From Iodidimonas sp. SYSU 1G8 (GTDB taxonomy: Bacteria; Pseudomonadota; Alphaproteobacteria; SMXS01), in NCBI RefSeq assembly GCF_039655775.1, contig NZ_JBBYXJ010000001.1:2007501-2071500 (forward strand): a DNA stretch of 64,000 nt, written 5' to 3'. Under the pieces are notes generated by a model, which was not told the origin of the DNA, did no database searches, and saw nothing but the letters and a program-made list of their open reading frames with translations. Positions 5,375 to 9,794 of the stretch are shown here, piece by piece; the stretch's first letter is position 1, and each line of letters opens with the position of its first letter. Both the position numbers and the translations under genes were made by a program.

Positions 5375-5522
5375 CGTCATCCCCGCGCACGCGGGGACCC
5401 AGATGGGGAAAGGGCGAACCGTTCACCACCCGCTCGGTCCACGAAAACTTCTTTGGTTGCCGGGACCCGTCCGCGGTCAACCAGCGCTCCGAAGAGCTGG
5501 GTCCACGCGCGCGGGGATGACG
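5375..5522. repeat. Palindromic dispersed repeat, copy 1 (intergenic)
   Basis: A 148-bp element bounded by inverted arms: CGTCATCCCCGCG at the left end and CGCGGGGATGACG at the right end. The internal sequence is related to the element at 7178-7320 in reverse orientation; both share the segment GAAGAGCTGGGTCC next to one arm. Here it fills the gap between two convergent genes (alcohol dehydrogenase and hupE/ureJ), where it could act as a bidirectional terminator. It carries no credible coding sequence. Confidence 0.8.
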
Positions 5523-5529
5523 ATAAAGG

Positions 5530-6051
5530 TTAGGCCAGAGCCCTGATCTTGAACCGCCGCGACACGCCCCCGGCAATCGCCGCGATGGCCAGCGTCGCGA
5601 CCGTCAGGCCGGCGATGAAGTTGACGCCATAGCCGACCTCGGACGCCGCCATGCCATGGATGAAGCCCTGCATGCCGGCGGCGACCAGCACCAGCGCGGC
5701 GACGATCCAGTCCCGGCCCTTCATCATCCCCGCGACGACCGCGCCGAAGGCCGAGCCGACCAGCACCATGTCGAGCGCCGCGTTCTCGCCGCCCAGCCCG
5801 AGCAGCCCGGCGACGGCGATGCCGCCGCCATACAGGCCCAGCGCCAGCGCGGTGGACTTGAATGGCCGCCACGCCGCCCACAACCCGACGAGGACGGCGA
5901 CGAACACATGATCGAGGCCGGTCGCGGCATGGGCGAGACCATCGGCGAAACTGTGATAATGGCCATCGCCCGGCACCACATGGGCGAAGGCGGCGGCGGG
6001 CGCCAGCACGGCGACAAGGGCGGCAGCGGCGAACAGACGGTTGCGGGACAT
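5530..6051 (-). CDS. HupE/UreJ family nickel-transport membrane protein
   Basis: A 173-residue membrane protein with an N-terminal signal-like helix ending in AFAHVVPGDGHYH, then a family motif (ATGLDHVFVAVLVGLWAAW) and five or so further hydrophobic helices. HupE/UreJ proteins are secondary nickel (or cobalt) permeases, and the histidines in HxxxGxxH and GLDH are the presumed metal ligands. It is the last gene of the urease operon, 13 bp after ureG, consistent with supplying nickel for urease maturation. Transcription probably ends in the palindromic repeat immediately downstream. Confidence 0.88.
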   Translation of the reverse strand: MSRNRLFAAAALVAVLAPAAAFAHVVPGDGHYHSFADGLAHAATGLDHVFVAVLVGLWAAWRPFKSTALALGLYGGGIAVAGLLGLGGENAALDMVLVGSAFGAVVAGMMKGRDWIVAALVLVAAGMQGFIHGMAASEVGYGVNFIAGLTVATLAIAAIAGGVSRRFKIRALA

Positions 6052-6713: not shown

Positions 6714-7547
6714 TCAGGATCTGAAAATGCGGCTGTACTGGGTTTCATGCCGCATGGACGCGACGTCGATGGACAGGCTGGCCGACCCGATATCCTCGAG
6801 CGACGCGGCCAGCGCCTCGGCCGCTGTCTCCATCACCGCGTCTTCCAGCGCGGCGATAGCATGCTGACCGTCGGTCTGCCCCATTTTCATCAGCCGCAGC
6901 GAGGCGCTGACGTAATTGGCGACGATGGCATGCAGGGTGAATTGCAGCGCCAGCGGCAGCGGCACGCCATGGGCGGCGCAAGCGGCGCCGACGACCACCG
7001 GAAAGGTCGGCGCGATGTCGCTTTCGGCCAGCAGGCGGTGCAGGCGGTCCAGCGCCGGATGCGGCCAGGCCTTGCGGAGGGTGGACAGGAAGGAGATGCC
7101 CTGCATCGTCGATTCCAGCGCCAGTTCCGCCGTGCCGCGCAAGGCGGCGGCCAGTTCGGCGACCTCCAAAATTCCTTCGTCATCCCCGCGCACGCGGGGA
7201 CCCAGCTCTTCGCAGGGCTCGGTCGGTACCGGTTGCTCGGAAAGAAAGTTCGTTCGCGATTGAGCGGCCGAAAGAGCAAGCCCCTGCCCCGCCTGGGTCC
7301 CCGCGTGCGCGGGGATGACGGACAGGGAGAGGGTCGCCCGATACGCCGCCGCCAGCAGGATCGCGTCGGTGCGGCCCGCGCCGTGCCGCAAATCCGTCTC
7401 CAGCCAGTCGATCAGCGTGTCCCGGTCGTGCACCCAGCCCCATTGCGCCGCCTGTTCCAGCCCATGGGAATAGCTGAAGCCGCCGATCGGAAAGGACGGC
7501 GACAGCCAGGCCTGGAGCCGCAGCAGATGCAGGCGGTCAGTGGTCAT
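6714..7547 (-). CDS. ureF: Urease accessory protein UreF with an in-frame repeat insertion
   Basis: A 277-residue UreF, the nickel-insertion accessory protein that links UreG to the urease-UreD complex. The start region ([21 protein letters not shown]) and the helical C-terminal half are typical. The usual length is about 220-235 residues; the excess is residues 76-124, encoded by the palindromic repeat at 7178-7320, which is open in this frame and begins VIPAHAGTQ and ends GPRVRGDD. Removing it restores a normal UreF (AAAYRA joined to EVAELAAAL). The insertion lies between helices, so the protein may still fold. The ATG at 7547 overlaps the end of ureE by 11 bp, implying translational coupling. 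Confidence 0.93.
7178..7320. repeat. Palindromic dispersed repeat, copy 2 (inside ureF)
   Basis: A 143-bp element with perfect 13-base outer arms (CGTCATCCCCGCG and CGCGGGGATGACG), extended inward to CACGCGGGGACCCAG and CTGGGTCCCCGCGTG. It is related to the copy at 5375-5522 but lies in the opposite orientation. It sits wholly within ureF and is read through without a stop codon. No target-site duplication is evident by eye. Confidence 0.85.
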
Positions 7548-8078: not shown

Positions 8079-9794
8079 TCAGTACATGAAATAGCGCTGG
8101 GCCATGGCCAGCACCTTGGCGGGCTCGCAGGTCAGCAATCGGCCATCGGCCCGCACCTCGTAGGTCTCGGGATTGACCTCGACCTTGGGCGTCAGGCTGT
8201 TCAGCTTCATGGAATGCTTGCCGATACCCCCGCGCGTGTTGACCACCGGCAGCAATGGCCGCTGGAGCCCCAGATCGGCGGCCAGGCTGCTGTCCGCCGC
8301 CGCCGCGCCGCTGACGAAGGTGACCGAGCTGGATTGCAGCGCCCGACCGAACGCCCCGAACATGGGCCGGAAATATTGCGGCTGGGGCGTCGGGATGGAC
8401 GCGTTGGGATCGCCCATGACCGCGGCGGCGATGGTGCCGCATTTCAGGATCATGTCGGGCTTCACGCCGAAAAAGGCCGGCGTCCAGATCACAAGATCGG
8501 CCAGCTTGCCGACCTCGACCGAGCCGACATGTTTGGAAATGCCCTGGGCGATGGCCGGATTGATGGTGTACTTGGCCACATAGCGCTTGGCGCGCAGATT
8601 GTCGTTGTCGCCGGTCTCGCCGTCGAGCGCGCCGAACTGTTTCTTCATCTTGTCGGCGGTCTGCCAGGTGCGGATGATCACCTCGCCGATGCGGCCCATG
8701 GCCTGGCTGTCCGACGAGATGATCGAGAACGCGCCCATGTCGTGCAGCAGGTCCTCGGCCGCGATGGTTTCCTTGCGGATGCGGCTCTCGGCGAAGGCCA
8801 CGTCCTCGGGGATCTTCTGGTCCAGATGATGGCAGACCATCAGCATGTCCAGATGCTCGTCCAGCGTGTTCACCGTGTAAGGGCGCGTCGGGTTGGTGGA
8901 GGACGGGATCACGTTCGCCTCGCCGCACACCTTGATGATGTCCGGCGCATGGCCGCCGCCCGCGCCCTCGGTATGGAAGGCATGGATGGTGCGGCCCTTG
9001 AAGGCGTTGATGGTCGTCTCGACGAAGCCGGATTCATTCAGCGTGTCGGTGTGGATCAGCACCTGCACGTCCATCTCGTCGGCGACGGACAGGCAGCAGT
9101 CGATGGCGGCGGCGGTGGTGCCCCAGTCCTCATGCAGCTTCAGGCCGCAGGCGCCGGCCTTCACCTGTTCCACCAGGCCGGCGGGCAGGCTGGCATTGCC
9201 CTTGCCGAAGAAGCCCAGATTGATCGGGAAGCCTTCCGCCGCCTGCAGCATGCGGTGGATGTGCCACGGGCCGGGCGTGCAGGTGGTGGCGTTGGTGCCG
9301 GTGGCCGGGCCGGTGCCGCCGCCCATCAGGGTGGTGACGCCCGAATACAGCGCTTCCTCGATCTGCTGCGGGCAGATGAAATGGATGTGCACGTCGATGC
9401 CGCCGGCGGTGACGATCTTGCCCTCGCCCGCGATCACCTCGGTGCCCGGGCCGACGATGATGTCGACCCCGGACTGCACGTCCGGATTGCCCGCCTTGCC
9501 GATGGCGTGGATGCGGCCATCCCGGATGCCGATATCCGCCTTGATGATCCCCGACCAGTCGAGGATCAGCGCGTTGGTGATGACCGTGTCGACGGCTCCT
9601 TGCGCCCGCGAGACCTGGGACTGGCCTTGACCGTCGCGGATGACCTTGCCGCCGCCGAACTTGACCTCGTCGCCGTAAAAGGTGCGATCTTCCTCGACCT
9701 CGATGAACAGGTCTGTATCGGCAAGGCGGATCTTGTCGCCCGTGGTTGGCCCGTACATGTCCGCATAGGCGGCGCGGCTGATCTTCGTCGGCAT
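8079..9794 (-). CDS. ureC: Urease subunit alpha UreC
   Basis: The 571-residue catalytic subunit of urease, which hydrolyses urea to ammonia and carbamate. All active-site residues are present, offset by +2 from Klebsiella numbering: His136 and His138 (DVHIHF), carbamylated Lys219 and His221 (GLKLHEDWG), His248, His274, the flap Cys321-His322 (MVCHHLD) and Asp362 (SSDSQAMGR). It starts with ATG at 9794 just 4 bp after ureB. Length and order (ureD-A-B-C-E-F-G) are canonical. It should be an active cytoplasmic nickel urease. Confidence 0.98.

Follow-up and report, generated by a model that had tools for sequence, protein, structure and literature searches.

A palindromic CGTC-REP pair read in frame within ureF, and a small GIY-YIG nuclease as candidate enzyme for its spread

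The window analysed here is a stretch of 64,000 nucleotides from Iodidimonas sp. SYSU 1G8, whose genome (G000; 3.9 Mb, two contigs) was compared with six genomes of the same genus (G001 to G006). The urease accessory gene ureF in this window carries a palindromic element that leaves its reading frame open, and a related pair of palindromes lies in an intergenic region nearby. The features are:

6714..7547, minus strand: ureF, urease accessory protein, 277 aa including the insert
7178..7320, minus strand: CGTC-REP head-to-head pair of 143 bp, in frame in ureF, residues 77-123
7178..7205, plus strand: REP with a CGTC head, the hairpin ATCCCCGCG-CA-CGCGGGGAC and a CCAG tail
7206..7292, no strand: interior of the element, fast drifting and without a stop codon in the frame of ureF
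7293..7320, minus strand: second REP, an inverted copy 100% complementary to the REP at 7178..7205
5375..5522, plus strand: second CGTC-REP pair, 148 bp, intergenic between a convergent dehydrogenase-like ORF and HupE/UreJ-like ORF, the right REP lacking 2 nt
5375..5402, plus strand: left REP of the second pair
5497..5522, minus strand: imperfect REP at the right end of the second pair

The inverted arms of the ureF element are 28 nt each, fully complementary (100%) and 87 nt apart, and the window contains the 28-mer three times, where chance would give 0.00. The element folds as a single strand with -97.4 kcal/mol, versus -61.5 +/- 4.3 kcal/mol for mononucleotide shuffles, and an Rfam search with it returned no family. 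The frame is open throughout the element and the 277-aa product is recognised as UreF (Pfam PF01730, E 2e-37), which bears out the proposal of an earlier note on this DNA that a palindromic element at 7178-7320 is read through by an otherwise normal UreF. The same note placed the insert at residues 76-124; the in-frame insertion stands, but its boundaries do not, given that the 143 nt (47 codons plus 2 nt) code for residues 77-123. When the protein is aligned with UreF of Helicobacter pylori (2wgl), the inserted segment maps between residues 97 and 100 of that chain, a position that would fit a turn between helices. Elsewhere in the urease genes, positions 9353-9642 of the window (plus strand) match the Rfam family 5_ureB_sRNA (RF02514, E 7.6e-33) antisense to the gene of the urease alpha subunit, a match that may merely reflect conserved coding sequence on the opposite strand.

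The insert is found at the same position of ureF in G003 and G005 (full-length identity of 81 and 79%, respectively) and is therefore not strain-specific, as comparison with close relatives had been suggested to establish. UreF of G006 has no insert, and in G001 a different REP (CCCGGCCTTCGCCGGGATGACG) lies at the site, beside unrelated sequence at a contig end. UreF proteins from ten genomes of other families match up to approximately residue 72 and resume from approximately residue 120. The 49-residue segment, the conservation of which in distant UreF had been named as the sign against an insertion, is absent from these ten.

The three readable copies of ureF indicate which part of the insert is preserved. 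None of the 20 palindrome codons carries a synonymous change, versus 31-43% of the identical-residue codons in the rest of ureF (p of 6e-4, 4e-5, and 1e-3), while in the interior of the element the three codon positions show similar rates of change. This argues that the palindromes are kept as DNA, through either selection or copying from other REP copies, and that the protein puts up with the peptide but does not conserve it. That the pair is retained for its use, with the peptide or the hairpin helping urease maturation or acting in the mRNA of the urease operon, could be read from the persistence of the insert in three species with perfectly conserved palindrome DNA. Nonetheless, we consider it highly improbable, given that the interior peptide drifts with no preference for codon position, that G006 and distant bacteria manage with a UreF lacking the insert, and that the conserved part of the insert is kept as DNA and matches non-coding copies elsewhere in the genome.

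The insert belongs, by its sequence, to a known superfamily: it is a head-to-head dimer of CGTC-tagged REPs. These are defined by a CGTC (or TGTC/CCTC) head, a stem of 8-9 bp opening with A-T pairs, a short loop and a CCA tail, and both ends of the element read CGTC-ATCCCCGCG-CA-CGCGGGGAC-CCA, with the outermost A/C pair mismatched in this subtype. Head-to-head dimers also predominate among the genome copies, as in this superfamily: the end motif, counted by pattern matching only, has seven forward and seven reverse matches in the genome, mostly in pairs of 142-152 bp. The count of copies proposed in the earlier note thus gives approximately seven pairs or part-pairs only. The related element that it reported at 5375-5522 is confirmed, with a left end identical to that of the ureF element and a right end shorter by 2 nt. 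Two further pairs (L016:5070-5221 and 5602-5752; G000:C1:1640069 and 1640601) lie 532 bp apart and are almost identical in the interior, which suggests local duplication of a pair.

Head-to-head dimers and intragenic copies of CGTC-tagged REPs have already been published, and Neisseria dRS3 and the Rickettsia conorii elements RPE-4 and RPE-6 are included among these repeats (Di Nocera et al. 2013, PMC3733652). The likeness to the palindromic elements of Rickettsia coding sequences that had been noticed from the sequence is upheld on two counts: the palindrome is read open in frame within a conserved protein, in the ureF of G000, G003, and G005, and it is of the REP type to which RPE-4 and RPE-6 were assigned (PMC3733652). 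The 2013 survey considered that CGTC-tagged REPs seem to have no dedicated transposase and are possibly heading for extinction (PMC3733652).

Outside the window, at G000:C2:172152-172600, the same ends as those of the ureF element bracket an ORF of 97 aa with a GIY-YIG domain (PF01541, E 1.1e-14). The 27-nt ends are identical on the pairs without an ORF and on this copy. The protein has the catalytic Tyr, Tyr, Arg, Glu, and Asn of the GIY-YIG superfamily and is a predicted nuclease; Y7, Y18, R28, H32, E65, and N84, the presumed catalytic residues, do not vary across sets of 26 and 33 proteins. Its AlphaFold2 model (pLDDT 91.7) is nearest to UPF0213 proteins and to Slx1 in Foldseek. VIA-align gives modest Z scores of 5-7 for Slx1, UPF0213, I-TevI, and UvrC, with nearly all rows above Z 5 being GIY-YIG enzymes.

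Relatives of the nuclease were gathered regardless of their flanks, at 46 alphaproteobacterial loci and at 80 loci from named genomes of many phyla. By a strict CGTC-REP motif (outward heads, within 400 bp), a REP is found at the first 46 loci upstream in 26, downstream in 25, and on both sides in 21, and at the other 80 loci in 54, 53, and 38, respectively. The same motif is found at none of 20 UPF0213-like GIY-YIG genes taken from the genomes of this sample and never in shuffled flanks. Many of the loci that fail the strict motif bear longer or variant CGTC palindromes, and with a broad motif, a CGTC REP lies at 250 bp or less from 102 of 122 nuclease loci, 71 of which have one on either side, compared with seven at a distance of 900-1150 bp. 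REP density is 4.7-5.7 per kb within 100 bp of the nuclease loci versus 0.04-0.12 per kb beyond 400 bp, and the left and right REPs are the same at 23 of 60 loci, where shuffling gives a mean of 1.4 and a maximum of 6. REP-bracketed nucleases occur, for example, in Azospirillum lipoferum 4B and in replicons of Sphingobium, Shinella, and Novosphingobium; in a Sinorhizobium replicon the nuclease has CCTC-headed repeats, and in Neisseria gonorrhoeae repeats of dRS3 form surround the gene. The association of this nuclease with CGTC REPs is well supported. The nucleases of one clade (L117, L255, L258, and L262) lie between long CGTCATTGCGAG...CAAYCCAG repeats, a repeat type that may belong to the same system.

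Nuclease and REPs also occur together at the level of whole genomes. Searches for two REP shapes, with the CTTGA-loop class among the patterns, found both nuclease and REPs in 38 of 143 genomes, the nuclease only in 9, REPs only in 15, and neither in 81 (OR 22.8, p 3e-14), and with one genome per family the association persists (OR 19, p 9e-12). The nine nuclease-only genomes have no REP of the two searched shapes. Among the fifteen genomes with REPs only are G101 and G089, with 80 and 41 CGTC REP matches, respectively. Neither has a convincing member of this nuclease group; either it was lost there or another enzyme serves the REPs.

These genomes bear on a different view, in which RAYT or IS200-type HUH transposases move the palindromes, as is thought for GTAG REPs, with the GIY-YIG gene as a passenger that came to lie between them. 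REPs and RAYTs are linked elsewhere (PMC3733652), and G000, G002, G004, and G005 each have a Y1_Tnp gene. However, G001 and G003 are rich in REPs and nearly complete, and have no such gene. Over the 143 genomes, Y1/RAYT genes are not significantly associated with REPs (OR 2.1, p 0.09), whereas the association of the nuclease persists in genomes free of Y1 (OR 13.8, p 6e-7). In the genus, no Y1/HUH transposase gene is bracketed by CGTC REPs, in agreement with the published observation that no IS200-type gene is flanked by CGTC units (PMC3733652). A Y1 transposase as the main partner was rejected on the 143-genome test, and we regard this view as very unlikely.

The loop class of the REPs clusters on the nuclease tree, in which most forks are unresolved, with 18 changes versus 24.6 after shuffling and none of 500 shuffles as low. 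Clades of nuclease paralogues in the genus each have their own REP type, common to orthologues across species. Copies of the nuclease within one genome are old paralogues with a top identity of 53-79%, which indicates that the gene is not multiplying like an insertion sequence; the pattern resembles that of RAYTs. Phage origin was rejected, given that no match was found among 50,697 phage records.

Orthologous sites have different occupants across the genus. At the orthologue of the nuclease locus, the nuclease points one way in G000, G002, and G004 and the opposite way in G006, G005 has a short pair with no ORF, and G003 and G001 have REPs of another type, that of G001 being interrupted by unrelated sequence. 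At a second site, G001 has a full element, G004 a decayed remnant, G002 a different pair, and G003 (L248) a single palindrome, CGTCGTCCCCGCGCACGCGGGGATGACG, with CGTC at both ends, which could be an excision product or an empty target. The unit that changes is therefore the REP-bounded segment. The flanks of these sites are too diverged for a target-site duplication to be read, and no recent insertion was found that combines an exact empty site with a target duplication. Among Rhizobium and Sinorhizobium replicons there was no clean strain-level empty site; those of Sinorhizobium varied only in REP copy number and kept the nuclease. In G001, a CCCGGCGAAGGCCGGG-type REP is interrupted by the same unrelated sequence at the intergenic nuclease locus and in ureF (L211 and L266), which suggests that REPs are targets of an insertion sequence.

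Homing is typical of some GIY-YIG enzymes, such as I-TevI, and the nuclease could accordingly be a selfish gene that homes into REPs made by something else, the repeats being its target and shelter and not its product. The finding of an ORF-less pair, a nuclease-bearing pair or another REP type at the same intergenic site, depending on the species, would agree with this, as would the single-palindrome state at the second site. We nonetheless consider it rather unlikely, given that the REP type follows the nuclease clade across species, that REP presence follows nuclease presence, and that the extra DNA-binding region usual in homing enzymes is absent from a protein of approximately 97 aa.

The reading that we prefer, with a probability of roughly 0.6, is that the ureF insert is a non-autonomous CGTC-REP pair and that the GIY-YIG nuclease is the gene of the full form and the candidate enzyme for its spread. 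The full form of the family would carry the nuclease gene of approximately 97 aa between the same two palindromes. The nuclease, which may be what moves the repeats, would recognise and cut its cognate palindrome, probably as a hairpin or cruciform, given that UPF0213 and the branched-DNA nuclease Slx1 are its closest matches in fold. Repair or rejoining after the cut could then copy, swap or excise the REP-bounded segment, and this action would let pairs spread in trans with ends that stay identical. The insertion in ureF, at an apparent turn between helices and with a length and frame that leave translation open, would have been tolerated since. This reading would give a mechanism for the entry of palindromes into protein-coding genes such as ureF.

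CGTC REPs, their dimers and the in-frame insertion of such repeats were known; what is new is the link to a GIY-YIG nuclease. No paper connecting GIY-YIG proteins with palindromic, REP, REPIN, dRS3 or MITE repeats was found in the full-text open-access literature, and an earlier report elsewhere is possible. CGTC REPs are small repeats that occur widely in Proteobacteria, and a small candidate enzyme with its cognate palindromes makes the question of their transposase testable biochemically. Whether these are members of a large unrecognised class of bacterial mobile DNA, in which each of these small GIY-YIG nucleases would recognise its cognate CGTC palindrome and spread it, with Neisseria dRS3, the Sinorhizobium RIME-like repeats and, by extension, the protein-inserting RPEs of Rickettsia among the palindromes, is in our judgement an even call.

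Compared with known systems, the elements described here agree with CGTC-tagged REPs in the CGTC head, the AT-starting stem, the short loop, the CCA tail, and the head-to-head dimers, often between convergent genes and with some copies in frame inside genes. They differ in that the published repeats are reported to lack any dedicated transposase, whereas many of the genomes studied here have a GIY-YIG nuclease gene between REPs of this kind. With the RPEs of Rickettsia they share a palindromic insert of approximately 150 bp translated in frame in a conserved protein, but the host is not Rickettsia (3.9 Mb, with urease and urea genes) and the copies are few; the link is through the published assignment of RPE-4 and RPE-6 to CGTC REPs. 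Like REPtrons and REPINs with their RAYT (TnpA-REP), they combine one low-copy enzyme gene bracketed by REPs with many ORF-less pairs, and the enzyme copies do not multiply alongside; the enzyme is GIY-YIG instead of an HUH tyrosine transposase, and the head is CGTC instead of GTAG. Finally, the candidate has the fold and catalytic residues of GIY-YIG homing endonucleases such as I-TevI and of Slx1 and UvrC nucleases, but it is only approximately 97 aa long with no separate DNA-binding domain, and its gene is bracketed by palindromes instead of being borne by an intron.
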